A stretch of DNA of 64,000 nucleotides from Mechercharimyces sp. CAU 1602. GTDB lineage: Bacteria > Bacillota > Bacilli > Thermoactinomycetales > JANTPT01. The translations under genes were made by a program, and so were the position numbers. The notes beneath the pieces were generated by a model. The model worked only from the letters and a program-made list of their open reading frames with translations. It was not told where the DNA came from and made no database searches. Position 1 is the stretch's first letter. Each line of letters opens with the position of its first letter. The stretch spans positions 310,001-374,000 of the forward strand of contig NZ_JANTPT010000001.1 in assembly GCF_024753565.1 (NCBI RefSeq), read 5' to 3'. This document shows positions 7,199 to 49,889 of the stretch, one piece after another.

Positions 7199-7200
7199 AT

Positions 7201-29539: not shown

Positions 29540-29613
29540 GATGTGACGGGTCTCCGGAAGCACATTCCCGTTGGAAGTAGTTCGTGTCATTAGCAATCCG
29601 ATACTCCTACCTT

Positions 29614-29784: not shown

Positions 29785-29972
29785 TGAACTTCTTCCTTCC
29801 TGATCCATTATGGAAAAGTATAATACAAATTTCACTATAAAATAAGGTGAGAGATGAGGTGGAAATGAAAATATTTTACTATAAGCAGTGTCCTGGCGGA
29901 AGACGATAAAAGCCGCAATAGATCGCGGCGTTGCGCGTAAAACTCGAACATAAAAATGGAGGTATACGATTA

Positions 29973-30692: not shown

Positions 30693-30741
30693 TCGACCGA
30701 ATATGCGGCTATTTTTAAATTCAAAAACGGAGGTAAGGTAA

Positions 30742-31851: not shown

Positions 31852-31861
31852 GAGGGATTGT

Positions 31862-32224: not shown

Positions 32225-32236
32225 GGAGGGGCGCAT

Positions 32237-32947: not shown

Positions 32948-33363
32948 TGGCGAAAGTCGAATTTGATGCATCGGATTTCTTCGCGAAGACTGCGTTGATT
33001 CCAGCGAAGATCGAAGTGGCGGGGACGACAGCGGTTCAAGCGTCAGTGGACGATTTAGAGAGAATCGCGGTCAATGTTGCGCCGATTGACACAGGTCAAT
33101 TGCGGAGGTCTTCTCAGAAAAAGGTTAAGACGAAGGGAGACGTAATTACGGGCGAGGTGTCGTTTTCAGCATCCGAAAGAGGTTTCAATTACGCTCTTTG
33201 GACGCACGAGTATGATTATAATCTAGGACCACAATCGTCTTCCGCAGGTGGTACTGACGGATATTCTGTCGGCAACAAATACCTTTCGCGTCCTTTGTAC
33301 GGAGAGCAAAACAAGTATGCAAAGTGGTGGAAGGATGCGATGGAACGTGCATTGAGTCTATAG
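32947..33363 (+). CDS. HK97 gp10-like tail completion protein
   Basis: 138 residues. The motif VNVAPIDTGQLRRSSQKKVK is the hallmark of HK97 gp10 family proteins; the C-terminus has RPLYGEQNKYAKWWKDAMER. It helps join head and tail. Confidence 0.8.
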   Translation: MAKVEFDASDFFAKTALIPAKIEVAGTTAVQASVDDLERIAVNVAPIDTGQLRRSSQKKVKTKGDVITGEVSFSASERGFNYALWTHEYDYNLGPQSSSAGGTDGYSVGNKYLSRPLYGEQNKYAKWWKDAMERALSL

Positions 33364-33372
33364 CGAAGGGAG

Positions 33373-33774
33373 GTGACGGAGGGATTGCGTACACTCGAAT
33401 TAATTAACTTTATTAAGGGTCGAGTCTCCTACGTATACTATCCGAATCGCTTTCCGGAGAATTCGATAGATGATTGCGCGATAGTCCGAATCTATTCAGG
33501 CGAAGGAACAGACGAATGGATAGGGAAGAGAGTACCGCACTTTCAGGTACTCGTGCGGGGAGCGGAGACGGACGCAGGAGGAACAGAAGAAAAGGCTTAC
33601 GAGATATTCGAATCTCTCGTGAATCAAAAGCATGTCGATATAGGGAGCGATCACATCGTGCAAATTGTGGCGATGGGATCGGCTCCCTTTTTCATTGGGA
33701 ACGACGAGAACAGTAGACCAATTTACTCTATGAATTTCAGAGCGATAGTAAAACCGAAAATTGAGAAGGAGTGA
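33373..33774 (+). CDS. tail terminator-like protein
   Basis: A 133-residue alpha/beta protein (LRTLELINFIKGRVSYVYYP, VPHFQVLVRGAETDAGGTEE, FESLVNQKHVDIG). Position just before the tail tube gene and its fold pattern fit tail terminators, which cap tail length. The start is GTG at 33373 or TTG at 33385; the SD region AAGGGAGGTGA does not settle it. Confidence 0.65.
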   Translation: MTEGLRTLELINFIKGRVSYVYYPNRFPENSIDDCAIVRIYSGEGTDEWIGKRVPHFQVLVRGAETDAGGTEEKAYEIFESLVNQKHVDIGSDHIVQIVAMGSAPFFIGNDENSRPIYSMNFRAIVKPKIEKE

Positions 33775-33781
33775 GAACGTA

Positions 33782-34318
33782 ATGGCGACTAACTATATTG
33801 ATGTTCCCATAGGTCCAGCGATTGTTGAGTTTGGGTCTACAGAGCCTATCGTCTTCGATATCACGAAGGGAGGCGTTGTTTTTTCTGTTGAGACTTCGGT
33901 GCAGGACATTACCGTGGATCAATACGGAGATACACCGGTTAAAACGATCTTAAAAGGGCGTGCTGCACAAGTGAAAATCCCGCTTGCCGAGTATGACTTA
34001 GAGCGGATTTCACAGGTTATGCCAGACTCGGAGCTGGTGACAGACTCTGCGGATGCACAAAAGAAGAAGCTTATCGTAAAAGCGAACGCCGGGTTTAATG
34101 TGATGACATTGGCGGATAAACTCGTCATCAAACCGACTGATCCGAATTCGACAGTTAACGATTACATCACTATTCCACTTGCAGCACCCATGGCGGATAT
34201 TGAATCCACGTATGACAGCGATAATGTTCGGATTTACAACGTGACTTTTAAGGCTTATGTAGACAAAGATAACGGCAACCAGCTCTTTATCCTGGGAGAC
34301 GAAACAGCGACAGCATAG
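33782..34318 (+). CDS. major tail tube protein
   Basis: 179 residues from the ATG at 33782 (SD AAGGAGTGAG). Beta-rich, with VFSVETSVQDITVDQYGDTP, GRAAQVKIPLAEYDLERISQ and a C-terminal NVTFKAYVDKDNGNQLFILG. It precedes the tail chaperone genes, as tail tube genes do in siphoviruses. Confidence 0.75.
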   Translation: MATNYIDVPIGPAIVEFGSTEPIVFDITKGGVVFSVETSVQDITVDQYGDTPVKTILKGRAAQVKIPLAEYDLERISQVMPDSELVTDSADAQKKKLIVKANAGFNVMTLADKLVIKPTDPNSTVNDYITIPLAAPMADIESTYDSDNVRIYNVTFKAYVDKDNGNQLFILGDETATA

Positions 34319-34377
34319 ATATTAATGAATGGCGGGCGAAAGCTCGCCTTTTTATATTCCATTAGCGAGGTGATTGG

Positions 34378-34803
34378 ATGTTCGAGATGTTTAAGGCAGT
34401 GAAAGAGCGTCAGATTGACAAAGCCAAAAGCGCCATGACTCCATCAGATATTTGTACGATTGGCGAAAAGGAAGTCAGAGTAACGAAGGTCACCGCGAAG
34501 AAGTTTAAGGAGATTATTCGTGTCGTTGAACGCCTTCCTGGGTTGTTGTTACAAGTCATACGAGCACCAGAACACGAGGTACATGCGCATCTCGTAGCGG
34601 CACTTGAGTTGGCGTTAGACGAAGTGATAGCGGTGACATCCATTTTAAGCGGCATTGAAGAGGAGTATCTATCTGAAAACGCTGGACTTGACGAACTTGT
34701 AGCGTATTTCATCGCGATGGAACGACACAATAACCTCTCGCGAACAGTAAAAAACGTAATGAGCCTTCTGCCGAAAGTACAGATGGAGAAAAGCGAACAG
34801 TAG
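34378..34803 (+). CDS. tail assembly chaperone, short product (gpG-like)
   Basis: A 141-residue helical protein (FEMFKAVKERQIDKAKSAMT, EIIRVVERLPGLLLQVIRAP). It follows the tail tube and precedes the tape measure gene. Near its end, at 34749-34755, lies AAAAAAC in the phase A AAA AAC, the standard -1 slippery heptamer. Most ribosomes would end at 34803; a minority would shift to make the longer form. Confidence 0.8.
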   Translation: MFEMFKAVKERQIDKAKSAMTPSDICTIGEKEVRVTKVTAKKFKEIIRVVERLPGLLLQVIRAPEHEVHAHLVAALELALDEVIAVTSILSGIEEEYLSENAGLDELVAYFIAMERHNNLSRTVKNVMSLLPKVQMEKSEQ

Positions 34804-35123
34804 ACGATTGGCTTATCGAGATATCGGTGGAACTCGGTGTGAGTCAGAACGTCATAGAAACCGAGTATTACATGATCGATTTGCCAAAAGTCTTGGAAGC
34901 CAAGCGCAGGCAGAAGGCAAGAACGGCTATGGAAGATGCGATGTTGGAGATGCTTCCTCACTTGAAGAACGAGGATCGGAAGCGGTTTATAACGGAGATG
35001 GAACTCCAGTCAGGCTTAAAGAAAGAAATTGAGACACAGAATGTAAAGTTTAGTCGCGAAAAAATGGACTCTCTTCACGTTTTATATGGTCAGCTTCGAG
35101 GAAAGCGGGGTGAAGGGAAATAG
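34378..35123 (+). CDS. tail assembly chaperone, -1 frameshifted product (gpGT-like)
   Basis: A shift at AAAAAAC (34749-34755) moves into a frame open from the slip to 35123. It reads KKRNEPSAESTDGEKRTVDD, then WLIEISVELGVSQNVIETEY and a basic helical end (EAKRRQKARTAMEDAMLEML), about 248 residues in total. The downstream frame has no SD-preceded start of its own before 34827. Frameshifted chaperone pairs that bind the tape measure are conserved in long-tailed phages. The frame and heptamer are seen; use of the site is inferred from the family. Confidence 0.8.
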
Positions 35124-38100
35124 CGAATGCAGGTACAATCAAAGCGAAAATGCTGTTGGAAGCGGATCAGTTCAATACAGAATTGAACCGCGCCAAGCAA
35201 AACATGAATGACACGACGACATACGGAACGAAGATGAAAAGATCGTTCGGTTTAGTCGAAAAAGCGGCACTCGCAGTCGGCGGAGCAGTGGCAATCGGCA
35301 TAGGCGGATCAACGGCAGTAGCGGCGACATTCGAGCAAGCAATGTCTCGTGTCAAAGCCATTTCCGGTGCTAACGAATCTCAGTTCAAAAAACTCGAAGA
35401 TGCAGCACGTCAGCTCGGCGAAACTACGTCATTTTCCGCGAGTGAAGCGGCGAGTGGTATGGAGTATCTTGCGATGGCTGGCTTCGATACTACGGAAATC
35501 ATTGCCGCAATGCCTGGCGTTTTGAATCTCGCAAAATCTGGCGCAATTGATCTAGGTACTGCTGCGGATATTACTTCGAATATTCTTACTGGCTTCGGAA
35601 TGTCGGCGGATCAAACGGGACACCTTGTTGACGTCATGGCTTCGACGGTTTCGAGTAGTAATACGAATATCGATCAGCTTGGGGATGCGATGAAGTATGT
35701 CGCTCCGATTGCGTCACAGCTTGGATGGAGTGTCGAGGAAACTGCTTCTGCGATTGCTGCAATGTCGTCAGCGGGAATTCAGGGGTCCCAGGCGGGCACC
35801 TCGCTCCGTCAATCGTTGCTATCACTCGTGAATCCGTCTCAGGAAGCAAAGGATTTGATGGACGAACTCGAAATATCGATCACCGGAACCAATGGCGAAA
35901 TGAAGCCGATGCCAGAGTTAATCGGGCACATCGCTAACAGACTCGAAGGCATGACGGAGAAACAGAAAACGTCAACACTCGCGCAACTCGTAGGTACAGA
36001 AGCGGCATCGGGTTTTATAAACGTCATTAACAAAGGACCAGATGCTCTCGCCGAATATGCCGAAGGACTAGAGAACAGCGATGGTGCGGCTCAAAAGATG
36101 GCGGATACCATGGGCGACAATATGCTCGGTTCCTTTAAGAAGTTCCAGTCGGCGTTGGAAGGTCTCGGAATATCGATAGGAAACGAATTCCTTCCGTATT
36201 TTACCGTCATCGTCGATGCAGCTACAGATGTCGTTCGGTTATTCGGGAAATTAGATAGCGGATCAGTGGCGATGGGTCTCGCGATGGCTGGCGTAGCGAG
36301 TACAGTTGCTCTCGTCTCTACGGCTTTCCTTCGACTGCGTGTTGCGGTGGCAGCGCTATACGCAAGCATGGGTCCAGCGGGTTGGATTATCGCAGGGATT
36401 TCGGCTATTGCAGCGGTGATGACCGGATACATCATGCAACAAGAGCGTCAAGTAGAGGTTTCAATGGAACAGGTTCAAGCTGGGTTAAAGCAGACACAGG
36501 CGAACGATCAGCTCATTGGTTCCTTCGAGGAACTGAAATCGAAAAGCCGATTGACTACGGAGGAATTCGGTAGATATATCGACTTACAAGAGGAATTAGC
36601 GCAGACAAATAGCGAGGAGAAAGTCGCAGAGATAAAAGAAGAGATGGAAGGGCTGCGAGAGAAGTCGGGGTTGTCGAATGACGAACTGAATACGATGGTT
36701 CGTCTGAACGGCGAGCTGATCGAGGCGTTTCCAAATGCTGAAAAAGCTGTTTCGGAGTTCGGAAACGAAGTTGTAGAAACAACGGATAAAATGTGGGATA
36801 TGAACTACCAACAACAGGAAATGTTGAAGATGGAACTCATGCAGAAGCTCTCGGAAGGTGCACACGAGTATGCGGATTGGATGGAGCAGATAAAGCAAAA
36901 AGAAAGTGAAATGACGGTGCTCCGACAGCAACATGAGGGACAGACAAGTCATATTAACGATTTATATGTTAAAAGGAAGGTATATCAAGATCGATTGTTA
37001 GATGGAGATAAAGAAAATGACTGGTACGCGAAACAACGTTTAGATCATTATGATAAGTTGATTGAAAAAGCAAAGGAAGAACGGGATGCAACGTTTGAAA
37101 AGGTTGAGGCATCAAAAGAGGATGTAGGTAATTTAAATGAAAAGATAGCGAAACATGAAATAGCAAAGCAGCAAATGGCGGATCTGTTGTTGGCGCAGAA
37201 CGGTATTAATATTGAAGCGGGTAAAGGGTTAGAAGGTATTGATAAGGAGATAGAGAAAAACAAGGACCTCATTCAATCGTTGAAAGAACAGAAGACGGGT
37301 CATTTTGAGAACGATAAACTACTCCAAGAACAAATTGAAAGTTACGAAGAACAAAATTCGATTTTACAAGGTATAAAGGAATCGATAAACGAAACTGCAG
37401 GTGCACAGTTAGAAGTAAATAAAGAAATCAATGAGGGAACAAATTATGCTCGTACATTGAACGATAAATTGAATGAAGAAACGAAAAAACCAGTCGATAC
37501 TTCGGATATTGACGACGGAAAGAAGAAAACAGATGAATTAAACTCAAAAGCCAATCAGAAGACGAAGAAGCCCGTAGACACAAGCGATGTGGATAAAGGT
37601 AACCAGAAAGCGGCTAATTTAAATAAAGACATTTCCAAATCCACGAAAAAGCCTATGTCGAGTAAAGATATTGAATCAGGTCAAGGAAAGGCGCGTGATT
37701 TGAATAAGGATATATCGAGAAGCATCACCAAAACAGTAAAAACATCATCTATTTGGGATGCGGTAAGTGTTGCGAAGGACCTACATGATTGGCTCACAAA
37801 ACCCGCGACAAAAGCTGTTTCCGTTGTCCGTTCTATTTATGAAAATCTCGTACGTCACCAAGGCGGATTAATTCCGACATACCATACGGGGACACCCTCG
37901 TCCGTTGTTCCTGGAATCGGAGAAGTCAACGCGACTCTACTAGGTGGAGAAATGGTGCTGACGCAACAAGACCAGGCGAAGTTGTTTCGATGGATCAACG
38001 ATATGGAAGCGAGTTTCGGAAACGTTGAGGTTAGTGGCGTTTCCAGTATCGGAGATCAAGAAATAACAATAAACCTTCCGGTAATTCTCGATGGAAGGCA

Positions 38101-38176
38101 AATTGGCCAGACTTCGCATAGCTTCTTATACAACCAGAAAACAAGCACGCTTAGATCGAAAGGCTATATGACTTGA
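35120..38176 (+). CDS. tail tape measure protein (TP901 type), apparent AUA start
   Basis: About 1018 residues. The region EQAMSRVKAISGANESQFKK, SASEAASGMEYLAMAGFDTT and IAAMSSAGIQGSQAGTSLRQ is the TP901 tape-measure core (about 75-340). Hydrophobic helices follow (about 385-440), then long coiled coils (450-750) and three or four 28-residue repeats containing KKPVDTSDI or KKPMSSKDI (about 770-870). Tape measure length sets tail length. The first ATG (35150) has no SD, but GGGGTGA lies 6 nt before ATA at 35120, giving (M)ANAGTIKAKM, the usual beginning of such proteins. ATA overlaps the upstream TAG. Confidence 0.85.
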   Translation: MANAGTIKAKMLLEADQFNTELNRAKQNMNDTTTYGTKMKRSFGLVEKAALAVGGAVAIGIGGSTAVAATFEQAMSRVKAISGANESQFKKLEDAARQLGETTSFSASEAASGMEYLAMAGFDTTEIIAAMPGVLNLAKSGAIDLGTAADITSNILTGFGMSADQTGHLVDVMASTVSSSNTNIDQLGDAMKYVAPIASQLGWSVEETASAIAAMSSAGIQGSQAGTSLRQSLLSLVNPSQEAKDLMDELEISITGTNGEMKPMPELIGHIANRLEGMTEKQKTSTLAQLVGTEAASGFINVINKGPDALAEYAEGLENSDGAAQKMADTMGDNMLGSFKKFQSALEGLGISIGNEFLPYFTVIVDAATDVVRLFGKLDSGSVAMGLAMAGVASTVALVSTAFLRLRVAVAALYASMGPAGWIIAGISAIAAVMTGYIMQQERQVEVSMEQVQAGLKQTQANDQLIGSFEELKSKSRLTTEEFGRYIDLQEELAQTNSEEKVAEIKEEMEGLREKSGLSNDELNTMVRLNGELIEAFPNAEKAVSEFGNEVVETTDKMWDMNYQQQEMLKMELMQKLSEGAHEYADWMEQIKQKESEMTVLRQQHEGQTSHINDLYVKRKVYQDRLLDGDKENDWYAKQRLDHYDKLIEKAKEERDATFEKVEASKEDVGNLNEKIAKHEIAKQQMADLLLAQNGINIEAGKGLEGIDKEIEKNKDLIQSLKEQKTGHFENDKLLQEQIESYEEQNSILQGIKESINETAGAQLEVNKEINEGTNYARTLNDKLNEETKKPVDTSDIDDGKKKTDELNSKANQKTKKPVDTSDVDKGNQKAANLNKDISKSTKKPMSSKDIESGQGKARDLNKDISRSITKTVKTSSIWDAVSVAKDLHDWLTKPATKAVSVVRSIYENLVRHQGGLIPTYHTGTPSSVVPGIGEVNATLLGGEMVLTQQDQAKLFRWINDMEASFGNVEVSGVSSIGDQEITINLPVILDGRQIGQTSHSFLYNQKTSTLRSKGYMT

Positions 38177-38196
38177 CATAGAGAGGAGGCGGTATT

Positions 38197-41100
38197 TTGT
38201 CATTTACTTTTAACGGAGTTCATTCGGATGAGCATAATTTAACTGTCACTAAAACCGATTCGCAGGTGTTGCCGCCACGCCAACTCCAAACCATCGAAGT
38301 TCCTGCGAGAGCGGGGACGTTATACTACGGGGCCGAAAAGGGAGCTAGGATATTCACGCTTCATTGTGCCCTCATAGGCGAAACAGATTTCGAACACAGA
38401 ATTCGCTTGATTGCGGAATGGCTTGATGTTGACGAACCCGCTCCGCTTGTTTTTAATACCGAAGCCGACAAAACATACTACGCCGTGGTAAACGACACTC
38501 CGACTCTCGATAGAGTGGGAACGTACGGAGAGTTTTCGATTCAGTTCTATTGCGCCGATCCACATGCGTTTGGGGAGGTGAAAACGCAGCCAATAGCGAA
38601 TCCGGACGCTGTTTTCGTGAGGCAAGGGATTCGCTATCGCGAAGATGGAACGGAGGTCACAGAAAACTATCCGGTGTACAAAGACGGAAAGTTCGGAAAG
38701 GCGGTTCTTATCGAGGAAGGGACGGAGAACCTTTTGACTACGGCTAGTTTGCCGAGTAACGAAGAGGTGGCGGTTGATGTTGGAGAGGAATATTCGCTAT
38801 CAATCGTTGACGGATCTGCGAAAATCGAACACACAGAGGTTTATGAGATTAACGCGACACTCGAAAAAGAAGGGGTCGATTTTGAGGGTTATGTCGATCA
38901 GGGTTGGCAGTCAGGGACTCATGTTAATACGGTGGAAGCCGATAATGACTATCTTGAATTGGCGAAGACAGGCGAGGATTTACGGTTAATAAATGGTACG
39001 GATTCGGAGTGGGCTGACTCATCGAATACATTAGTCGACACAACCTCGGAAAATGGAAATCTAGTTCTATCGAATCTTCCATCCTGGGACGTAGAAGAGA
39101 AAATGGAGGACTATACCGACACTTGGCAGATTGCGGGTCAGGGATACGGAGGTACCGTGACGCAAAAAACGAATTATGTTGAGATCATTGATGGAGGGTC
39201 AGGGGTTTCGGGTAACTTTGGAATGGAGCTGTTAGATCAAACTGTTTTTCCAGTGACCATGGATTTCCGTGTCCGGTGTCGCGATAATACGGATGCGTAC
39301 GTTGTTATTGAGGATGACATCGACTATATAAAAGTAAAACTACCAAGTACTTCTGGAGAATGGGTATGGCACCGGATTATATGCCATAGTTCTAGTTCCA
39401 TGACAAAGTATGTTGATGGAGTTGAGGTTAGCGGAGGTTGGTGGAAAGGAGACTCGAAGGTGAATCAAATTCAATTTTATATCGATGGTCCTGATGGATA
39501 TGGTGACTTCGATATTGGACCAACCTATATCGCGTTCGGAGAAGACCTCGGTGCGCCTCCGTCAAACCACGAATATGAGGGAAAGTGGACGACTGACTAC
39601 ATTTCTGTGAGTTCAGTTGATACGTATGAATCTGTAGGAGTGGGCTGGGGTGCTTCGTATCCGGCTCCGTTTTCCGCAGACGATTATACGATCACATGGG
39701 AGTCTCAGCTCAAAATCGGAGGGGCTGAACAGGGTTGGAAAGACTTTGACAAGGACAATATAGTCGGGTTGTCCAAGGGAGATGACGTTTCAAATGTTGA
39801 AGTCTGTTTCCGAATCACTCTGAAAAGCCGTGACTCCTGTTTTTCTCCGCGAATATATAGAGCAGAGTACACTTTATACTCTGGATACGAGACGGCGGGA
39901 TATAGAGAATCTGCTCCGATAGATATTTCGCAGGTTGGGAAGGCTTCTAGAACAGAATTAACATGGTTTGTTTCCGATGAGCCTACAGGAACTTCAGCGA
40001 AGGTAGAAACACAGGTTTCATTGGATGGAGGATCTAGCTGGTCTGAATACACGGAAGTTGTGATTAGTAGTGATCCGATACCAGATATCAGCCAGGATAC
40101 CGATCTTTCCAACGCTTATCTCCGTTACAAGTGGACACTCACGACAACCGACATTTCCGAAACCCCGTCTATTGATCGAATGGATTACGACCTTTTCACC
40201 GGATACAAACCTTCACAGACAATTGATATTGAAACGGTAGATGTCGGATCTATTGGCGAAGTCGAATCATCGTTTATCGAATGGTCAGAGGATGTCCAAC
40301 CCAACACGAACATCAAAATCGAAACCAGCATCGACGGAACTAATTACAAAGAAGCGACCATCGGGTCGTCTTTTTTAGTTCCAAATGAAAACCTAAGTGG
40401 AAAATCACTATACCTTCGATACACTATCGAAACTTCGGACACTGCCGTTGCGCCTACGTTGAACAACATAGCTTGGAAAATTGCGCAACAAGAGGAAACG
40501 AGAATTTCACCTGCGACATCGACACTATCGTTGACTCCGGCAAATGTATCTCGATGGCAACTCGAAAAGAAACCGTTTCCAACCGGATGGCAAGCGTATG
40601 GCTCACCACGAAATGGCGAATGTATCTATGTTAAAACCGATGAAGTGTTAAACGAAACGGAGGGGACAATAGAGTTCTGGGTTTATGAAGAGGGAGATAG
40701 CCCGGTTCAGCGATACATGATCGACTTGAACGGAAACTCACGAATGTCGCTGTATCGAAGTACAGATGGCAACTATGTTATCTATTTCAATGGAGAAGAA
40801 GTCATGTCTTCCTCTGCGCCATCTATCGGTTGGCACGCAATCACTATACGATGGAATGGAACCGAAGTAACTCTGTTCGTCGATGGAATCGAAATGGATT
40901 CCGAGGTATTGACGCAAAGTGTTTCTTTCTACGAAGCGACGCGGCTTTATGTCGGGTGTGACCAACATGGAGCGAATCAGTGGAATAGCCTCATTGATGA
41001 TATGCGAATATCGAATATTGCACGAGCAGACGAAGAGATTGCCATTGGATACAATTCCGGAGAATCGTTTGAAGTAGACGATTTCACGACATACAAAGTA

Positions 41101-41448
41101 ACTTTCGATTCTGCTCTCGCTTCGGCTACGGATTCCTCGATGATTGTCGAAGGGACTGCGCCTGTTCAACCGATATTCACCGTGTCGATAGTAAAATCTG
41201 CATCGTATTTGAAAGTGAGTGACGGAATCCATTATGTTTATGTCACGCCGGAAGTAGGTGAAGAGTTTGTGGTTGGGGACGTAATAGTGATCGATAACGA
41301 AAGAGCAAAGGTTACCCACAACGGCACGCTAAACATGCCGGATCTTGACTCGGATTTCTTCACGATACCGAAGGGAGAAACCGAATTCATCGTTGAGCCG
41401 TCAGGAGTCGCACGTATCGAGGCTTCTTTCACTGAACGCTGGAAGTAA
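38197..41448 (+). CDS. evolved distal tail protein with carbohydrate-binding (LamG-like) domain
   Basis: A 1083-residue protein, TTG start with SD GAGGAGG. The first 130 residues are a Dit-type N-terminal domain (FTFNGVHSDEHNLTVTKTDS, AGTLYYGAEKGARIFTLHCA). Several beta-sandwich stretches follow, and a LamG-like domain (about 800-955: NETEGTIEFWVYEEGDSPVQ, GWHAITIRWNGTEVTLFVDG, LIDDMRISNIARADEE). A short beta end closes it. Dit proteins form the hub at the tail tip; inserted binding modules make it an evolved Dit that can contact cell-surface polysaccharide. It sits between tape measure and tail lysin genes, as expected. Confidence 0.8.
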   Translation: MSFTFNGVHSDEHNLTVTKTDSQVLPPRQLQTIEVPARAGTLYYGAEKGARIFTLHCALIGETDFEHRIRLIAEWLDVDEPAPLVFNTEADKTYYAVVNDTPTLDRVGTYGEFSIQFYCADPHAFGEVKTQPIANPDAVFVRQGIRYREDGTEVTENYPVYKDGKFGKAVLIEEGTENLLTTASLPSNEEVAVDVGEEYSLSIVDGSAKIEHTEVYEINATLEKEGVDFEGYVDQGWQSGTHVNTVEADNDYLELAKTGEDLRLINGTDSEWADSSNTLVDTTSENGNLVLSNLPSWDVEEKMEDYTDTWQIAGQGYGGTVTQKTNYVEIIDGGSGVSGNFGMELLDQTVFPVTMDFRVRCRDNTDAYVVIEDDIDYIKVKLPSTSGEWVWHRIICHSSSSMTKYVDGVEVSGGWWKGDSKVNQIQFYIDGPDGYGDFDIGPTYIAFGEDLGAPPSNHEYEGKWTTDYISVSSVDTYESVGVGWGASYPAPFSADDYTITWESQLKIGGAEQGWKDFDKDNIVGLSKGDDVSNVEVCFRITLKSRDSCFSPRIYRAEYTLYSGYETAGYRESAPIDISQVGKASRTELTWFVSDEPTGTSAKVETQVSLDGGSSWSEYTEVVISSDPIPDISQDTDLSNAYLRYKWTLTTTDISETPSIDRMDYDLFTGYKPSQTIDIETVDVGSIGEVESSFIEWSEDVQPNTNIKIETSIDGTNYKEATIGSSFLVPNENLSGKSLYLRYTIETSDTAVAPTLNNIAWKIAQQEETRISPATSTLSLTPANVSRWQLEKKPFPTGWQAYGSPRNGECIYVKTDEVLNETEGTIEFWVYEEGDSPVQRYMIDLNGNSRMSLYRSTDGNYVIYFNGEEVMSSSAPSIGWHAITIRWNGTEVTLFVDGIEMDSEVLTQSVSFYEATRLYVGCDQHGANQWNSLIDDMRISNIARADEEIAIGYNSGESFEVDDFTTYKVTFDSALASATDSSMIVEGTAPVQPIFTVSIVKSASYLKVSDGIHYVYVTPEVGEEFVVGDVIVIDNERAKVTHNGTLNMPDLDSDFFTIPKGETEFIVEPSGVARIEASFTERWK

Positions 41449-41461
41449 GGGAGGTGAAACT

Positions 41462-44290
41462 GTGGATAAATTGTGGATAATCAATAGAAGTACAGAGAAG
41501 GCACTTGCTGTTTTGACGAATAGCTCGAACAAGTCGTGTACCTTTTTCAACGCGGTTCATCGTGAATCGATTAACGAATTTGAGCAACTGGAATTCAGTA
41601 TTGACGCTACTCACGAAGACTCGGAATACGTCATCGAAAAGAATTTCGTTTGCTTTAGAGACCTAGACGGATTATACCGACTCTTCATCATTCAGGACAT
41701 ACAAGAAACGCATGACTCCATTAAGACGAAAAAAGTCATTTGCGAATCCGCAGCGTCTGAACTCCTCGGAGAGCCAGTCGAAGACATTACGATTTCCAAT
41801 GGGACTGCGGAATACGCGCTGGATCGAATTCTTTCCGGAACACGTTGGCAAGTCGGTACTGTAGACAATCTCGGCGAACATGATGACCGATTCTATCGTG
41901 GAAACGTCATACGTTGGATCAACCGTATCCTTGAAATCTGGGGTGGTGAAGTACGGTTCCGTGTGACTATCGCGAATAACCGAATCACGGGGCGCTACGT
42001 AGATATTGTTAGTCAACTCGGCAATTCCGTACGAAAGCGTTTCGAGTATGGAAAAGACGTGCAGCAGATCGAAAAGAAAGTAGACGCGAAATCAGTTGTG
42101 ACTGCGCTCTATGGCTATGGGAAATCCGATAGGGACGAAAACGATAACGAAACCTACGTCACCTTAGAGAATTCCGAGTGGTCTGTTGACAACGGAGATC
42201 CAACCGACAAACCTACCGGACAGTCGTGGGTAGGCGATTCAGATGCGCGGGATGCTTGGGGCATGCCGAATGGAGACGGAACCTACCGACACATATTCGG
42301 TGAGTTCACGGATAGCGATATCGAAGATCCGGAAGAACTATTGCAGGCGACATGGGACGAATTGCAGAAACGTAAAGAGCCACTTGTCGAGTACACGGCG
42401 ACAGTGGTCGACCTTGAACGGGCGTATGGCGAAGACTACAGTCACGAAGCGATACGATTGGGCGACGTAGTATTCGTTATTGACCGTGAATTCGCTCCGG
42501 AGCTTCGAGCAGAGGCAAGAGTCATAGGAGTGGAACGACATCTCGATAGGCCGCAGGATACCGTTGTGACTATCGGGAATTTCCTGCCTAAAATGGCGGA
42601 TGACTCTGCAAAACTACGAGATGTTGAACGTAGAGTAGGCGAGAAGATAGGCGTGACTGATCCGATACGTACTTCGTGGTTGAGTGGTGCTCTTGATGCT
42701 ATCAACAATGAGATTTACGCAGGTGGTGGTACGGTTGTCACAACGAATGATGGCATCAATATCCTTGATAAACCACTGGATCATAATCCATCGAAATCAA
42801 TCTTGATGAACAATGGGATTGTTGCGGTCTCGAATCAAAAGGTGAATGGGGATTTCGTGTACGAGGACGCGTTAACGGGAGACGGGATTGTTGCGAGTGT
42901 TATCCGTTCTGGTACGATGCTCTCGGATAGAATTCGTGGGGGAACGTTCTACGTTGGTGGAACGATAGAAGGTGTAGGACAAAACGGAGTTCTGTATTTA
43001 CTAGACGACAAAAACGAGATAGTAACGACATTGAGTGCGGAACAGCAGGGATTCTCAAAACTCTATGTGGGTGAATTATCAGGAGAAAATGTAGTAGTAA
43101 AGGGTAGCGAGGACAAAACGATTTACGTAGACCCGTCATCCGGATCTAATGAAAAAGACGGTTCTTCATGGGAAAATGCATATCAGTCATTGCAACAAGC
43201 GATCGATGAAAATGTAAAAGAGGTGAATATAGGACGAATAACATTCAGGATCAAATCGGGGACAACGGTTGATGAAGAAATCGTCTTAGACAACATCATT
43301 GGCCCAGGAAGACTGGATTTCGATTTTCAAGACGACTCAACGAACCTGTACGGATACTTTCGAGTAGCATCGTGTCTAAACAGAATTTATATCTACGATG
43401 GGACATTTACACATTCAGGGTCGACTCATCCCAATGACGGCAAGCCGTATTCCGTTATCCGCACTCTAATGACGAATTGGGTGTCGATTAATCGTACGAA
43501 AATTCAAGGCGATGGTAAATGTGATTATGGTATCGCATCTGAAGGTGCCAATATTGTTGTGAGTGATTGTGAAATCTATGATGTGAATAGTGGATGTTTA
43601 TATGCGACTATTGGCGGACACATTGCGTCTATGAACAATATCGGATCAGGTGGATATGGTGCGAGAGCGACGAACACGGGAACCATTTGTGGATGGGGTA
43701 CCTATCCGTCAGGGTCAACAGCAAATATCCACGCAACAAGTGGTGCGAGAATATGGCTAACAGGTTCCGCAGATGATGGTTCTGGCGGGGGTTCCTATGA
43801 TCCGCAACCAGTGACGTATACATGGTCTCAAAAAGATTCTCTTTCTTGGGATTCGAAATGGGGGTGGAATACGTGGGACCCGAATGAAGTAACGCAAGGA
43901 GATCCAGGCAGTTGGGGGGATGCTGGTTTGCATAGAGGTTGCTGGTTCTTCGACTATAACGACATTAGATCGAAACTAGCGGGAAAGATGATTACATCCG
44001 TAAAGTTTTACGCAAGGAGACAATCCAGAGGTGGGTACTCGGCTTCACGTCCTGTCTATTTCTGTACGCATGATAGATCATCTGCATCCGGGACTCCAAG
44101 CATGAGCGGCGCAACGAATGCAGGGAGTTTTAAATGGGGCGACAAAAAGTGGGTCACTCTCCCGAAAAGCTTTGGCGAAAGACTTCGTGATGGAGACGCA
44201 AAGGGGATCGGTATTTATACCTCAAACGCCAGCAACTATTATTATGTTTTGATGGAGGAAGCGTGTACCCTCAAAATTACATGTGAGTAG
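41462..44290 (+). CDS. tail-associated lysin/spike protein (Tal) with beta-helix C-terminus
   Basis: 942 residues from the GTG at 41462 (SD GGGAGGTGA). The N-terminal 380 residues are the Gram-positive phage tail-hub fold (KLWIINRSTEKALAVLTNSS, RYVDIVSQLGNSVRKRFEYG, RDAWGMPNGDGTYRHIFGEF). No endopeptidase motif is evident. Residues 540-780 look like a parallel beta-helix tailspike (TIYVDPSSGSNEKDGSSWEN, VVSDCEIYDVNSG), and the last 150 residues form a separate jelly-roll-like tip (WGDAGLHRGCWFFDYNDIRS). It probably binds, and perhaps degrades, a surface polymer. Confidence 0.75.
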   Translation: MDKLWIINRSTEKALAVLTNSSNKSCTFFNAVHRESINEFEQLEFSIDATHEDSEYVIEKNFVCFRDLDGLYRLFIIQDIQETHDSIKTKKVICESAASELLGEPVEDITISNGTAEYALDRILSGTRWQVGTVDNLGEHDDRFYRGNVIRWINRILEIWGGEVRFRVTIANNRITGRYVDIVSQLGNSVRKRFEYGKDVQQIEKKVDAKSVVTALYGYGKSDRDENDNETYVTLENSEWSVDNGDPTDKPTGQSWVGDSDARDAWGMPNGDGTYRHIFGEFTDSDIEDPEELLQATWDELQKRKEPLVEYTATVVDLERAYGEDYSHEAIRLGDVVFVIDREFAPELRAEARVIGVERHLDRPQDTVVTIGNFLPKMADDSAKLRDVERRVGEKIGVTDPIRTSWLSGALDAINNEIYAGGGTVVTTNDGINILDKPLDHNPSKSILMNNGIVAVSNQKVNGDFVYEDALTGDGIVASVIRSGTMLSDRIRGGTFYVGGTIEGVGQNGVLYLLDDKNEIVTTLSAEQQGFSKLYVGELSGENVVVKGSEDKTIYVDPSSGSNEKDGSSWENAYQSLQQAIDENVKEVNIGRITFRIKSGTTVDEEIVLDNIIGPGRLDFDFQDDSTNLYGYFRVASCLNRIYIYDGTFTHSGSTHPNDGKPYSVIRTLMTNWVSINRTKIQGDGKCDYGIASEGANIVVSDCEIYDVNSGCLYATIGGHIASMNNIGSGGYGARATNTGTICGWGTYPSGSTANIHATSGARIWLTGSADDGSGGGSYDPQPVTYTWSQKDSLSWDSKWGWNTWDPNEVTQGDPGSWGDAGLHRGCWFFDYNDIRSKLAGKMITSVKFYARRQSRGGYSASRPVYFCTHDRSSASGTPSMSGATNAGSFKWGDKKWVTLPKSFGERLRDGDAKGIGIYTSNASNYYYVLMEEACTLKITCE

Positions 44291-44297
44291 GGATGAA

Positions 44298-44858
44298 ATG
44301 AAAATAATATTATTCGATGGAGATGAGATTAAAGAAGTTCTTAAAGGTTGCGAGAATGTTGAGGTTGACGACGAGACGAATTGTATTTATTTCGAGTCAG
44401 GAGAACTATGCGGAATTAAGAGCGACTATGCGATTGTTGACGATGATGCAGTGCCTGAAGATGCAATCCTAGAATCCAATTTACTTGAACCGGAGAAAGT
44501 GCGAAAGATATCATCACTGAACAATAGATGTGAATCCGCTATACTTTCTGGATTTACGTCAGAGACAACGGAGCACACCTACCAATTTAATACGACGGAC
44601 CAAATTAACATGACGCAACAATATACGCTACTTCTCGGCAACCCCGATATATCTACCGTGGATTGGAAGACGGAAGATAGCGGGGTTGTTGCTCATTCGC
44701 GGGATGAGTTTATATCGATTGTCAATGAAGCGGAAGAGCATAAACGTGGAAAAATCGAAAAGTATTGGCGACTAAAATCGAAAGTACAAGCAAGTACCAC
44801 ACGAGAGGAGGTGAGGTCGATTTCGTGGGATGGAGGAGAAACCGTAGAGGAGAGTTAG
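44298..44858 (+). CDS. tail-fibre-associated protein with DUF4376-like end
   Basis: 186 residues from the ATG at 44298 (SD AGGGATG). N-terminal beta-rich part (KIILFDGDEIKEVLKGCENV). The C-terminal helical part contains TVDWKTEDSGVVAHSRDEFI and EHKRGKIEKYWRLKSKVQAS, similar to the DUF4376 domain at the end of many tail-fibre accessory proteins. It lies between Tal and holin. Confidence 0.65.
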   Translation: MKIILFDGDEIKEVLKGCENVEVDDETNCIYFESGELCGIKSDYAIVDDDAVPEDAILESNLLEPEKVRKISSLNNRCESAILSGFTSETTEHTYQFNTTDQINMTQQYTLLLGNPDISTVDWKTEDSGVVAHSRDEFISIVNEAEEHKRGKIEKYWRLKSKVQASTTREEVRSISWDGGETVEES

Positions 44859-44859: not shown

Positions 44860-45267
44860 ATGGCTAGTATTGATCAGTTAGTTTACGTTAAGTTTTTAGT
44901 TGGGTTTGGAGGTGCGGTCGCATCGTTTATGTGGGGAGGGTGGTCGGAAGCATTGACGATATTAGCGGTTTTCGTGTCGATTGACTTTCTCACGGGATTT
45001 GCTGCTGCGGGCAGGGAGGGGAGATTATCTAGCAGAAGAGGAATGCGTGGTATATCAAAGAAACTTCTCATCTTCGCATTCGTAGCGGTTGCACACCTTT
45101 TAGATCAGTTTTTAGGCGAAAGTCACTTGCTTCGTGATGGAGCGGTGGCTTTTTATATTGCAAACGAATGCTTATCAATTGTCGAGAATTTCGGGCGAAT
45201 GGGGCTTCCGATACCTCCGAAAGTTCGTGAGGCTATCGAGATTTTAAGGGGAAAGGATGATGAATAA
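44860..45267 (+). CDS. phage holin (toxin-secretion/lysis family)
   Basis: 135 residues. Three hydrophobic helices (KFLVGFGGAVASFMWGGWSE, ILAVFVSIDFLTGFAAAG, ISKKLLIFAFVAVAHLLDQF) with the FLTGFAAAGREGRLSSRRG loop, and NECLSIVENFGRMGLPIPPK near the end, both typical of phage_holin_4-type holins. It forms the membrane lesion for lysis. The stop abuts the endolysin start. Confidence 0.85.
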   Translation: MASIDQLVYVKFLVGFGGAVASFMWGGWSEALTILAVFVSIDFLTGFAAAGREGRLSSRRGMRGISKKLLIFAFVAVAHLLDQFLGESHLLRDGAVAFYIANECLSIVENFGRMGLPIPPKVREAIEILRGKDDE

Positions 45268-46200
45268 ATGGGGCTTTTTGACTTAGGAGTTCCGGTTAAG
45301 GATGTTCGCAAAACATTAAAAAGAAGAGGAAGCTATCGTGATTATGGTGTCAATTCTAAAACCCACATTATAATCCATCACTCGTTAACAAAACGCAATT
45401 TGGCAGGATCTAATGCTGAATCATATGCGAGGTACCACGTTGGTTTGGGGTGGCCAGGAATAGGATATCACTTTGTAATTGAAGCGGACGGAACAATTAA
45501 GTACTGTCATAGCCTTGGTGTGATGTCCTATCATGTTGGAAACCACAATCGCTATTGCGTAGGTATTTGTTTGAGTGGAGATTTCCGATATGAAGAACCG
45601 ACACAAGCACAGAAGGAGTGTTTACGTCGGCTTCACGCGTATCTTACGGGAGCGCTTCCTAATTATAAGAAGACTCTAGGGCATTGCGAATTGTCCGGAT
45701 ACGAGTGGAAGCAATGTCCAGTTTTTGACTATACAGCAACGCTTAAAGAAAAGACGAAAGAACCAAATCCTTTTGACCAATTTAAACCTGATGAACTAAA
45801 CAAAGCACCCAATGGGGCTACATTTTCTCGTACATTGAAATATACGAATCCAATGCAATATGGGAAAGATGTAGAAGCCGTGCAAAAGATTGTAGGAACG
45901 AAATCAGATGGATATTTTGGTCCGAAAACGAAGTCACGCCTAATTAATTGGCAGAAGAAAAAAGGGATCAAGCAATCTGGTGAAGTCGGTGATTATAACT
46001 GGATGCGGATGTTTGGGAAGAAAGAGGTACAAAAACCGAAGAAGCGGAAGGAATACTGGCGTGTTTTGAAGGACGGAAAACAAATCGGTTATTACGACAT
46101 CGACGAAAACGCTCGTAATGTGATACTGGAAGAAGCGGAAAAAGCGATGAAGAAGAATCAAGAAAATACCGAATTTAAGATCGAAAGGGAGTTGAAGTAG
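45268..46200 (+). CDS. endolysin: N-acetylmuramoyl-L-alanine amidase with PG-binding domain
   Basis: 310 residues. The Amidase_2/PGRP domain (about 10-165) has HIIIHHS (His 37-38), GIGYHFVIEADGTI and the zinc-site end LGHCELSGYEWKQCPVFD. A PG_binding_1 repeat follows (about 195-243: DVEAVQKIVGTKSDGYFGPK). The last 50 residues (KEYWRVLKDGKQIGYYDIDE) form an extra small domain also present at the end of the fusion gene 7687-8559. It cleaves the peptidoglycan amide bond at lysis. No signal peptide, so holin-dependent. Confidence 0.9.
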   Translation: MGLFDLGVPVKDVRKTLKRRGSYRDYGVNSKTHIIIHHSLTKRNLAGSNAESYARYHVGLGWPGIGYHFVIEADGTIKYCHSLGVMSYHVGNHNRYCVGICLSGDFRYEEPTQAQKECLRRLHAYLTGALPNYKKTLGHCELSGYEWKQCPVFDYTATLKEKTKEPNPFDQFKPDELNKAPNGATFSRTLKYTNPMQYGKDVEAVQKIVGTKSDGYFGPKTKSRLINWQKKKGIKQSGEVGDYNWMRMFGKKEVQKPKKRKEYWRVLKDGKQIGYYDIDENARNVILEEAEKAMKKNQENTEFKIERELK

Positions 46201-46201: not shown

Positions 46202-46414
46202 ATGGGTATAGATTGGAAATCACGTTTACGCAATGGATGGTTTTGGGCTTCGGTATCTTCGTTTGTACTGTACTTTCTAGTGGGAGAGGGGATTCTTTCG
46301 CAGGTTATCGCGGATCGTTATGAAATTTATTTCGATATGTTGATGGCGATTCTCGTAGGTATCGGGATTTTGATTGATCCGAAGACTTCTGGGATTAGTG
46401 ATGGAGGGGAATAA
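46202..46414 (+). CDS. phage holin, phiLC3-like
   Basis: 70 residues, two hydrophobic helices (WFWASVSSFVLYFLVGEGIL, YFDMLMAILVGIGILIDPKT) ending SGISDGGE. The DWKSRLRN start and DPKTSGISD end match the phiLC3/phage_holin_1 family. As the second holin-type gene of the lysis cassette it may act as holin partner or antiholin. Confidence 0.75.
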   Translation: MGIDWKSRLRNGWFWASVSSFVLYFLVGEGILSQVIADRYEIYFDMLMAILVGIGILIDPKTSGISDGGE

Positions 46415-46430
46415 GAGGGTTAGAAAAAGA

Positions 46431-46457
46431 AATGCCAGGGCATAATGCCCTGGCATT
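46431..46457 (-). terminator. bidirectional terminator between lysis and quorum cassettes
   Basis: ATGCCAGGGCAT and ATGCCCTGGCAT form a near-perfect 12-bp stem with a 1-nt centre. The T run (TTTCTTTTT) follows on the reverse strand, so it serves mainly the propeptide operon. Confidence 0.8.
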
Positions 46458-46576
46458 CACCTAACGATGGGTTCTGTTTTAATAGGATCGTCTGCTGCAT
46501 ACGAATCGTGCGAACCTATCGGAATGAGGACAGCAACAATCAGCGCAAGAATAGCGGTTTTAAGCCAACCCTTCAA
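46457..46576 (-). CDS. Phr/AimP-like signalling propeptide of the phage (39 aa)
   Basis: The reverse strand, TTG start inside the receptor's last codons, SD AAGGAG 9-10 nt upstream. Reads KGWLKTAILALIVAVLIPIG (signal peptide) and then SHDSYAADDPIKTEPIVR. The gene overlaps the receptor stop by 17 bp and is followed by a terminator. The signal is expected in the C-terminal 5-8 residues. A secreted communication peptide carried on a phage is the arrangement used by arbitrium systems to count infections. Confidence 0.8.
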   Translation of the reverse strand: MKGWLKTAILALIVAVLIPIGSHDSYAADDPIKTEPIVR

Positions 46577-47906
46577 GGTAATCAGCTCCTTCAAAAAAGA
46601 AATTTTTATGTTTAGTCTGTAGGTCATACATATGGCGTAAATAGCGGTTAAATTCCTTTTGGTCTAGGCTCTCCCAAGATTTAGCCAGCCTTGAGGCTAT
46701 CTGAAGCTCTTTGTGTAAGAGGTCATTTTCTTGTGAAAGTTTGAGTGCTTTCTCGTAAATAGGAGTAGACCGATGCGGCTCTCCTTGCCACCGATATACG
46801 TCTCCAAGCACCATCAAGGATTCAACCAATTTAGGGAAGTCTTCATGTCTTTCGGCATTCTCTTGCGCATTGTTGGCTGCATAAAGAGCGTCATCCCAAC
46901 GTTTTTGATGAATGTATAGCGCACCAAGCCGTGAATACAGCGTAGAAATGATGCGGGAGTTGACAAGCTTCTCGACTTGAGTTGCCATCTCAAAGGATTC
47001 CTCAGCGCGCTCGAGTTGCTTAGTAGATAGATAAATGCTACCGAGTGTAGTCCACAGCCCAAAAATATGCGCATATTGTTGTGTTGGTTGTGCTAGATCT
47101 ATTCCAGACTTTACGTATTGAATCGCATCATCATATAGCTTGTTTTCCAAGGAAAGTTTAGAGAAAAGATCATAAATAGGCAAAATAATGTCGAGTCTTT
47201 TTATTTCATTCAAGCTCTCCTTGAGGTTTTCCAGCGTCTTGAGGGCTTCTGCATTACGTCCTACTCGGCTTAGATACGTTGCTTTGTCATGGATCAATAT
47301 GTAACGGAGATCTGGTGTTTCGCTAGAAAGGCTAAATGCTTGGAGGCTTTGGTCTACATAGTCAATCGCCCTATATATATCATTTTGAGAGTATGAACAG
47401 AATGCGATTGAAGATAAGCAAATGGAGACTTCATTGTCCAACTTCCCATACTCGGATTGTTGGGAAAGTCTAATGGACTCAACGTATAGACGTTCAGCAC
47501 GCTCGAAGTCATTAGATAATTCGTAGCAGTGTCCTTTTAAGCGGTAGAATATCGGTGCGTACGGATGTACTTCTGAATCGATATCTATTTTTTCTAACTT
47601 TTCCAGTGCTCGTTCAGGCTTGTTTATCTGACAAAGATATTCTATCATACGCAATTTTTCGCGTAGAACACTCAGTTTTTCTTGCTGGTCTAACATTAGT
47701 TCAGGCAGCTCATCACGATCAACACCGAGCTTTTCTTCCAGTAAATAATAAATTTTATCAGTTGAGACGTGCGGCACTCCTCGTTCAACGTTTGAAATCG
47801 TGGCGGGCGACGCATTGTTATCGGCTAAATCCTCCATACGAAGATCGCGCGATTTACGAATTTTACGAATCAATTCTCCAAGCTGCTTGCGTTGGAACAA
47901 CTCCAC
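46560..47906 (-). CDS. phage-encoded RRNPP quorum receptor (XRE HTH + TPR)
   Basis: 448 residues, GTG start, SD GGAGGTG. N-terminal XRE helix-turn-helix (ELIRKIRKSRDLRMEDLADN, SPATISNVERGVPHV), then TPR pairs (EKLEKIDIDSEVHPYAPIFY, YAEAL-like repeats, ERAEESFEMATQVEKLVNSR). It shares the SPATxSNxERGVPHV recognition segment with the receptor at 13809, so the two may read related DNA sites or peptides. It lies opposite the lysis genes on its own promoter. By analogy with AimR it may steer the lysis-lysogeny choice or lysogen gene expression. Confidence 0.85.
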   Translation of the reverse strand: MELFQRKQLGELIRKIRKSRDLRMEDLADNNASPATISNVERGVPHVSTDKIYYLLEEKLGVDRDELPELMLDQQEKLSVLREKLRMIEYLCQINKPERALEKLEKIDIDSEVHPYAPIFYRLKGHCYELSNDFERAERLYVESIRLSQQSEYGKLDNEVSICLSSIAFCSYSQNDIYRAIDYVDQSLQAFSLSSETPDLRYILIHDKATYLSRVGRNAEALKTLENLKESLNEIKRLDIILPIYDLFSKLSLENKLYDDAIQYVKSGIDLAQPTQQYAHIFGLWTTLGSIYLSTKQLERAEESFEMATQVEKLVNSRIISTLYSRLGALYIHQKRWDDALYAANNAQENAERHEDFPKLVESLMVLGDVYRWQGEPHRSTPIYEKALKLSQENDLLHKELQIASRLAKSWESLDQKEFNRYLRHMYDLQTKHKNFFFEGADYLEGLA

Positions 47907-47942
47907 TCTTCCGCACCTCCTGATTTAATGCAACCTGCCCAT

Positions 47943-47971
47943 ATTATACAGTTTTGACTATATAAATGCAA
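47943..47971 (-). promoter_or_regulatory. sigma-A promoter of the phage quorum receptor
   Basis: On the reverse strand TTGCAT, 17-nt spacer, TATAAT, about 37 nt before the GTG start. Confidence 0.75.
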
Positions 47972-48140: not shown

Positions 48141-48593
48141 TTATTTTAATTCACTTAACTCTACGATTTGCTCTTTTGTCTTTACAATTAATCGATAAGA
48201 AGAGGAACAATCACTTTTTAATTCTCTTGTTTCTTCACCTTCGACTGATGCTTGTGAGACTTTATTACACGAAGTGGACGCTTCTTTCAGGAAATTAAGA
48301 AGCTTGTTGTGGGTGTCGCTATATCTACCGCTTGGTGCGAGACCTTGTATTTTTTCGATTACCTTTTCCGCTTCCATACTGATCAAAAGTGCCTCGCCAC
48401 CGATCCCTGTGTCTAATTCATCATAATATGTCCCTGTGGCAACCTCAAACGGTTCCACTGCATCCTTAATTGCTTTTACGTATTCCTCATCGCTCATCCC
48501 AGAATCCGCGAATACGAAAACCCCAATTCCGATTCCTCCCGCTACAATTACGAAGATCCCGACAACTAGAGAAATCACCCATTTTTTATCCAT
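48141..48593 (-). CDS. membrane-anchored extracytoplasmic protein
   Basis: 150 residues. One N-terminal membrane helix (WVISLVVGIFVIVAGGIGIG) follows a short basic start. The outside part is helical (DEEYVKAIKDAVEPFEVATG, SMEAEKVIEKIQGLAP) with two cysteines (TSCNKVSQ, KSDCSSSY) that could form a disulphide. No family recognised. It is expressed from the lysogen side of the genome, like the quorum cassette, so it may be a lysogenic conversion gene. Confidence 0.6.
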   Translation of the reverse strand: MDKKWVISLVVGIFVIVAGGIGIGVFVFADSGMSDEEYVKAIKDAVEPFEVATGTYYDELDTGIGGEALLISMEAEKVIEKIQGLAPSGRYSDTHNKLLNFLKEASTSCNKVSQASVEGEETRELKSDCSSSYRLIVKTKEQIVELSELK

Positions 48594-48773
48594 ACTCGTC
48601 CCCCTTATAATCTACGTTTAGTTTAACTCGAACGCAGATATGATTCAATATTACGAATTTTATTTTGTTTTATGCGAATTAATCGAAATGACCTCTTTTG
48701 ATCGAATTTATGGATCGAAAAACTTATCTTGTCCATAGAAAATAATGCGAATATAAAATTCATCCACAGATAT

Positions 48774-48860
48774 ACATCTAGTGTACACTCGATCTACCCA
48801 CAGTGTGGTTACGGTACTGCATGTTTACACTCGATGTACCTCTAGTGTAGATCGAGTGTA
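48774..48860. repeat. parC-like repeat cluster upstream of the partition operon
   Basis: TACACTCGATCTAC (48784-48797) and TACACTCGATGTAC (48826-48839) are direct copies. GTAGATCGAGTGTA (48847-48860) is an inverted copy. CTAGTGTA also occurs at 48779 and 48843. Repeats just before a ParM-like gene are the usual site for ParR binding and autoregulation. Confidence 0.65.
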
Positions 48861-48879
48861 TTGAAGGAGGCGAGATGAT

Positions 48880-49665
48880 ATGTTAGTCGCGGTTGATTGC
48901 GGAAGGTCGGAAGTTAAAGTCGTCCATCGTCACGGAAAGTTCGCGTTTCCCGCTGTAATAGGCGAATGGCGGAAGCTAAATATCGGTAAGAAGCGTGAAA
49001 ATGAGATCGAAGTAGTTTACGAAGGAGAACGTCTTTTTATCGGCGACTTAGCTGTTCGTGAGTCCGAATTCCATCGAAGCATGATGACAGATACCAAGGC
49101 GCATGAGCAAACGTTAATTTTAACGCTTGTTGCTGTGTATCAGGCGAACACAGTGGGGAAGGTAAGCGTTGTGACGGGGCTACCAGTCGAATTGCATTCA
49201 GACGACGAGAAAGCGTCAATGAAAAAACTGATAACTGGAAAGCATCGGATCGAAGTGAACGGAATATCGCGCCTAATCCAGATCGAAGAGGTAGTTGTTT
49301 GCATCGAAGGAGGCGGAGCTTTTTGGGCGAATCCTCAACGTGGTTTAGTTCGGATTATTGATGTCGGAGCAAAGACAGTGAACTTCTTGACGCTTAAGGA
49401 TAAAGAGTACATTGATCGCGAATCAGGAACGTTGCAGTTCGGGGGAGATACGACTAAGACCAGAAGCGCCAAGCATCTCGCAGAGCGCATTTGCGGAGAA
49501 GTCGCGAAGAAGTGGAGCGCGGAGGATACCGTAATTACGGCAGGGGCGATGGCAAACGATTTGATTCCGCATTTTAAGCGCCATTTCCCAAACGTAACCG
49601 CCGTACCTGATCCTAAGTACGCCAATGCGCAAGGCTTTTATGAGATCGGGAAGCGGTTATTATGA
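48880..49665 (+). CDS. ParM/Alp-like plasmid-segregation actin
   Basis: 261 residues, SD GAAGGAGG. Actin-family nucleotide motifs are visible: phosphate-1 VAVDCGRSEVK (3-13), VTGLPVELHSDDE (about 105), phosphate-2 IIDVGAKTVNFL (about 159-170), and the adenosine motif VITAGAMANDLIPHF (about 223) with PKYANAQGFYEIGKR at the end. Members form filaments that push plasmid copies apart. It is shorter than classical ParM (about 320), as some Alp proteins are. The next gene overlaps by 4 bp and looks like its adaptor. Confidence 0.8.
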   Translation: MLVAVDCGRSEVKVVHRHGKFAFPAVIGEWRKLNIGKKRENEIEVVYEGERLFIGDLAVRESEFHRSMMTDTKAHEQTLILTLVAVYQANTVGKVSVVTGLPVELHSDDEKASMKKLITGKHRIEVNGISRLIQIEEVVVCIEGGGAFWANPQRGLVRIIDVGAKTVNFLTLKDKEYIDRESGTLQFGGDTTKTRSAKHLAERICGEVAKKWSAEDTVITAGAMANDLIPHFKRHFPNVTAVPDPKYANAQGFYEIGKRLL

Positions 49666-49889
49666 ATCGGTATCGTCAGATCGCAATCGTCTTCAACATC
49701 AGTGATCCGGATCAAAAATTCCTTTACGACATGGTGATAAAGCGTCCAAACAAGTCGGGGTTCGTAAAGAAAGCACTTGATTACTACCGTCTAGGTCAAG
49801 GAACTCCAATGCAGATAGCGCAGGTTACGAAATCAATCGACAACACAGAAGACGATCAAGATGCGGAATTGATGCGAGGGTTGGTCTAG
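49662..49889 (+). CDS. ParR-like partition adaptor
   Basis: 75 residues, ATGA overlap with the actin gene. The N-terminus (NRYRQIAIVFNISDPDQKFL) and helix (YDMVIKRPNKSGFVKKALDY) fit a small ribbon-helix-helix DNA-binding adaptor. The acidic C-terminal tail (EDDQDAELMRGLV) would contact the filament. The family match is weak; position carries the call. Confidence 0.6.
   Translation: MNRYRQIAIVFNISDPDQKFLYDMVIKRPNKSGFVKKALDYYRLGQGTPMQIAQVTKSIDNTEDDQDAELMRGLV

Follow-up and report, generated by a model that had tools for sequence, protein, structure and literature searches.

We found that a prophage of Mechercharimyces sp. CAU 1602 carries a peptide receptor gene together with the gene of a propeptide predicted to be secreted, and that this cassette extends a known type of signalling by a new, phage-borne branch. 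On balance our data suggest that the cassette is prophage cargo of the lysogenic-conversion kind, a quorum-sensing unit from the chromosomal RRNPP family of the host order that is probably wired into the host network, with no dedicated timer. To our knowledge, arbitrium in phages of Bacillaceae is essentially the only RRNPP-type phage communication that has been validated by experiment. Positions are those of the window, by which we mean the whole 64,000-nucleotide stretch of DNA analysed, unless a contig (C1 or C2) is named. The cassette has the following parts.

46430-46458, minus strand: intrinsic terminator of the cassette, a 13-bp stem and a T tract
46457-46576, minus strand: secreted propeptide of 39 amino acids, TTG start with a Shine-Dalgarno sequence; predicted secreted part ADDPIKTEPIVR
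46560-47906, minus strand: RRNPP-type receptor of 448 amino acids, XRE HTH and nine modelled helical TPR pairs, GTG start
47943-47971, minus strand: cassette promoter TTGCAT-N17-TATAAT; the same type stands at paralogues (window 13744-13771 and C2:262348)

Pfam profiles placed an HTH_3 domain at residues 13-67 of the receptor and matched the protein to TPR families (best E 1e-18). An AlphaFold2 model (mean pLDDT 90.7) has an N-terminal helical domain at residues 2-58, and by our count nine helical pairs follow it in the model. The product is thus a TPR-domain receptor, as expected of RRNPP(A) systems, with an N-terminal HTH, which is optional in them, and the XRE-TPR assignment of the first-pass annotation was correct. 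When the model was compared with the PDB it matched TPR superhelices generally, and among the matches listed Rap-pheromone structures rank among the highest query-normalised TM-scores (RapJ-CSF 4gyo, 0.57; phi3T Rap 8rsv, 0.55). A structure search of BFVD gave mostly TPR proteins of giant viruses, and none of its matches was recognised as an RRNPP receptor from a phage.

The propeptide gene adjoins the receptor gene and carries an export signal by the hydrophobic-segment and Shine-Dalgarno criteria, again as in RRNPP(A) systems. It starts with TTG at 46576 behind the Shine-Dalgarno sequence AAGGAG, overlaps the end of the receptor gene by 17 nt and stops at 46457; the first-pass annotation had proposed a longer frame, 46457-46627, beginning at an upstream ATG. 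The propeptide reads MKGWLKTAILALIVAVLIPIGSHDSYA/ADDPIKTEPIVR, where the slash marks the predicted cleavage; both the signal peptide and the cleavage after SYA were assigned by eye from the sequence. The pheromone is likely the C-terminal 5-7 residues, KTEPIVR, a mature form that we infer. The genome also carries oligopeptide-binding proteins. We then asked how often such an overlap occurs, using all genes of at least 250 codons within the fetched loci and counting frames of 25-90 codons that start no more than 25 nt before the stop and have a Shine-Dalgarno sequence and a hydrophobic segment. A propeptide-like frame of this kind overlaps 48 of 115 family receptors but only 3 of the 975 other genes; chance therefore does not account for the pairing in the cassette. 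A proline is present among the last six residues of all 48 family peptides and of one of the three background frames.

That the cassette has its own terminator, as first proposed, is well founded (13-bp stem, -25.8 kcal/mol, z -6.9). The claim of its own promoter fared less evenly. A generic consensus scan yielded no more sites than shuffled sequence did and lent no support, whereas the rare TTGCAT-17-TATAAT type found at 47943-47971 occurs three times in the window with 0.04 expected. Across the 2.93 Mb genome there are five ATTGCAT-N14-18-TATAAT sites (none in the reversed control), three of which are the promoters of cassette receptors listed above. The remaining two are intragenic or, at window 4267-4295, precede a membrane-protein gene by a decayed cassette. 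Two of the three receptors with this promoter are close paralogues, so the sharing may be partly due to descent; neither of them is close to the window receptor. A search for motifs by EM found a promoter-like TTCCAA...TGTA..ATAA at other family receptors, and a family-wide operator motif was rejected since the window receptor is absent among the sites listed and has the TTGCAT type. As a side observation, the membrane-protein gene next to the decayed cassette (3315-4202, minus strand) has this rare promoter type of the cassettes and is a possible member of the regulon.

The receptor belongs to a family that is abundant in the host order. The window genome has 14 matches to it, and most of the intact paralogues have an overlapping propeptide in the same layout. 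This genome has the peptide ends TEPIVR, TEPIGH, LDPSFP, GDPSIS, AEPSST, AEPSKS, SDPEHV, YEPDGP, STPSE and EEPGG, while those of relatives include SEPGGL, SNPGHA and EDPGMS, the family type being [E/D/N]PGGx; in some relatives' genomes the propeptides stand as 3-4 tandem copies. Among 61 genomes searched, strong matches are confined to Thermoactinomycetales (1-27 per genome), with weak matches only elsewhere in the class. A scan of named genomes gave 95 relatives, and the 80 kept are all from Thermoactinomycetaceae or from unclassified Bacillota MAG contigs. No match was found in the phage, plasmid and viral collections INPHARED, PLSDB and IMG/VR. A phage-specific receptor clade was rejected since the phage copies are scattered in the tree, in which the placement of the window copy is weak (SH-aLRT 90). 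Identity between the window receptor and its relatives is 57-74% in the HTH, with exceptions at 41% (the copy in an ICE-like element) and 56%, and 23-36% in the TPR region. A conserved HTH with diverged TPRs fits a conserved operator and diversified peptide specificity. RRNPP systems in Thermoactinomycetaceae are not new as such, since candidates near gene clusters of this family are already among those of a survey with 21 novel subfamilies (PMC10075063).

Under the preferred reading, of cargo derived from a host family, a lysogen would transcribe the cassette from its own promoter, and the 39-residue propeptide would leave the cell through Sec, with cleavage after SYA. Proteases outside the cell would free the C-terminal pheromone of 5-7 residues, about KTEPIVR, which would re-enter through an oligopeptide permease and bind in the TPR groove of the receptor. 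Binding would alter the action of the HTH at a TTGCAT-type operator or promoter. The outcome would be self-control of the cassette and crosstalk with host peptide circuits, and lysogens would sense the density of lysogens. Both autoregulation and crosstalk are suggested by the HTH and promoter of the cassette, which resemble those of host paralogues; these shared features predict that prophage and host circuits communicate, in a genome whose sigK is split by cassette-bearing mobile elements.

Known peptide systems share parts of this design. AloR-AloP of Paenibacillus pairs an HTH and TPR receptor with a downstream, often overlapping secreted-peptide gene, is reported to be essentially confined to Paenibacillaceae, has the mature peptide SHGRGG and is present as 16 AloR paralogues in P. 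polymyxa ATCC 842, with some orphan receptors (PMC7425212). The window family resembles it in receptor type, in the overlapping downstream gene and in the many paralogues per genome, but it differs from the description of AloR in having been found in Thermoactinomycetales only, in its [E/D/N]PGGx peptides and in its additional carriage by prophages. NprR-NprX and QssR are similar in architecture, having an HTH, nine helical pairs and non-degenerate TPRs recognised by Pfam; NprR has a sporulation-phosphatase role in addition. Like the Rap-Phr pairs of prophages and ICEs, the cassette combines a receptor-peptide overlap with carriage on a mobile element and a TPR fold (4gyo, 8rsv). Membership in Rap-Phr was nevertheless rejected, since Rap has an N-terminal three-helix bundle and no HTH, unlike the window receptor with its XRE HTH. 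A five-TPR receptor of the PlcR/Rgg type was rejected as well, since RNPP_C (PF18768) gave nothing above cut-off in the genome and nine helical pairs were counted. AimR-AimP is likewise a phage-borne HTH/TPR receptor with a secreted peptide, but the AimR profile (PF22871) has no match over cut-off anywhere in the genome, and membership was rejected on this ground; the genomic position and the peptide, KTEPIVR, also differ, and no aimX-like unit was seen. The profile results and the detection of the family only in one order both support the earlier proposal of a lineage other than AimP/AimR.

The cassette is carried by an apparently complete prophage of siphophage type, with genes for both the small and the large terminase subunit. 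Around the cassette the prophage has the following features.

25258-44858, plus strand: head, packaging and tail genes (terminase, portal, scaffold, major head, tape measure, Dit, Tal, fibre)
44860-45267, plus strand: phage holin (Phage_holin_4_1)
45268-46200, plus strand: endolysin (Amidase_2 and PG_binding_1)
46202-46414, plus strand: second holin (Phage_holin_1)
48141-48593, minus strand: small membrane-anchored protein of no family, directly upstream of the receptor gene
48769-48860, plus strand: centromere-like repeats, a parC candidate
48880-49665, plus strand: actin-like ParM/Alp partition protein

The cassette is convergent with the holin-endolysin-holin genes, and 42 bp separate the stop codons of the holin and the propeptide. 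With both frames intact, the 17-nt overlap and the terminator, the complete receptor-propeptide gene pair opposite holin and endolysin that was first described is confirmed. It sits where the late operon ends, and neither the repressor, the anti-repressor nor the integrase is adjacent. The end of a phage late operon is a usual site for accessory genes; adjacency to holin and endolysin marks that end and is no proof of lysis control. Beyond the cassette, the partition and replication region has ParM, FtsK, an anti-repressor and a DnaB-type helicase, and a serine integrase is found at the far end of the prophage near C1:389094-390728. Comparison of the membrane-anchored protein with two lipoproteins gave no clear sign of relationship. 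Separately, we note that positions 48769-49889 form a plasmid-type partition module (repeats, ParM-like actin and a small gene that is likely ParR) in an integrated prophage.

We counted recurrence of this arrangement starting from holin loci (PF04531) and not from receptors. Outside the window genome a receptor lies within 7 kb of the holin at 5 of 16 loci (1.0 expected, Poisson-binomial P 0.002), although the five are not fully independent because three share one genome. At all five, receptor and lysis genes converge (L165, L173 and L174 in one genome, L177 and L195). A locus of T. daqus (L153) has the same layout, and terminase and portal genes lie upstream of several such loci. At least three other genera have prophages in which similar receptors face the lysis genes. 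In the window genome, a decayed prophage at C1:1732k retains a receptor end (41%), a peptide ending in TEPIGH, and an antisense holin (61%) with endolysin fragments; TEPI is thus conserved between the peptides of this prophage and the window prophage. The prophage whose terminase is most similar (G027, 68%) has no receptor in the stretch where one was expected, which indicates that the cassette is accessory. A wider and more tentative proposal is that these prophages constitute a second, independent lineage of phage communication, unrelated to AimR by recent descent. Prophages of Thermoactinomycetales may repeatedly have captured receptors of the host order's pheromone family behind their lysis genes and may use them, in some cases together with leaderless repeat peptides (PDPPD, GDDDDT), to gauge the number of lysogens and to direct what phage or host does. 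A lineage found in one order only that recurs at the same prophage site would make phage capture of host quorum sensing testable with synthetic peptides.

The first-pass annotation had suggested an arbitrium-like timer of a different lineage. In such a timer the peptide would carry information on earlier infections, and the receptor would switch a phage gene on which the choice between lysis and lysogeny, or prophage induction, depends. The phage-borne pair of RRNPP type and its separation from AimR hold. Nine-TPR receptors include AimR and have been linked to dormancy decisions, and the [E/D/N]PG motif of the family peptides recalls the DPG motif reported in AimP-like peptides (PMC12700828); the recurrence of the cassette at one location in several prophages also fits a timer. 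Nevertheless we consider the timer role unlikely. Apart from the missing AimR match, no aimX-like target was seen after the propeptide near a lysogeny module, since the terminator closes the unit directly and is followed by the lysis genes on the opposite strand. The cassette is not next to the repressor or the integrase, its HTH and promoter are of the host chromosomal type, and the prophage with the most similar terminase does without it.

By its sequence, sigK of this genome is interrupted by two adjacent skin-like elements of about 18 kb and 65 kb. The gene is broken into three pieces, all of them on the minus strand: the N-terminal one at C1:390702-390908, the middle one at C1:325469-325729 and the C-terminal one at C1:306850-307128. 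The middle and C-terminal pieces have the 16-nt junction sequence AATGAGATTACACTAA in common, while the joint between the N-terminal and middle pieces was inferred from the protein reading frame because its core is very short. The 65-kb element is the prophage with the cassette, and the 18-kb element has its own serine recombinase, one intact cassette and one decayed cassette.

2371-2943, minus strand: decayed third cassette, with what remains of a receptor and, after it, a propeptide frame that ends in ...LKQEEPGG
13803-15128, plus strand: second intact receptor, a paralogue, in the neighbouring sigK element
15115-15237, plus strand: propeptide of that receptor, ending in ...QRAEPSKS
15469-15729, minus strand: middle third of sigK between the two elements, the left edge of the cassette-bearing prophage

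Excisable elements in sigK are established (PMC5025042, PMC4430133); we found no earlier report in the literature of RRNPP cassettes in both of two such elements. The smaller element also contains, at 5317-8559, a remnant of another phage; it has terminase genes and part of a portal that is fused to a C-terminal end resembling an endolysin. The presence of cassettes in both elements would fit one that senses density and times sporulation entry or excision of the elements; prophage RRNPP systems adjoining sporulation regulators are on record (PMC10075063), and AloR13 controls a Spo0E gene (spo0E) in Paenibacillus (PMC7425212). We regard this role as improbable, since no Spo0E, AbrB or Rap gene was recognised beside the cassette and most paralogues lie outside the sigK elements. 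We likewise give little credence to a passive or decaying passenger, a host cassette acquired with no present role: the neighbouring and C1:1732k copies are already broken and the nearly invariant W228 of the family is K in the window receptor, but both frames are intact, 58 of the 70 strongly conserved columns of the family-wide alignment are kept, as are promoter, terminator and overlap, and TEPI is common to the peptides of two prophages.

Several further observations were made at other family loci. A small gene that we call 'X' (~90-120 aa, weak DUF3970 resemblance) is divergent from the receptors at L165, L173, L174, L177, L195, L153 and L154. It occurs in 22 of 61 genomes in up to 16 copies, is widespread in one of the order's families, and is a candidate target of the receptor branch that it adjoins. 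It was rejected as a general target of the family since it is absent from the genome of the window, including beside the window receptor. Just after some receptors, leaderless mini-ORFs take the place of secreted propeptides, with tandem PDPPD at L177 and L195 and a shared GDDDDT at L174 and L153; these may be leaderless pheromones or intracellular peptides. Finally, at C1:1151k (L010, 4514-7236) a cassette with the peptide end YEPDGP has an XRE repressor and a ParM-like gene as neighbours; it lies in an apparent integrative element that interrupts a Mur-ligase-like gene.
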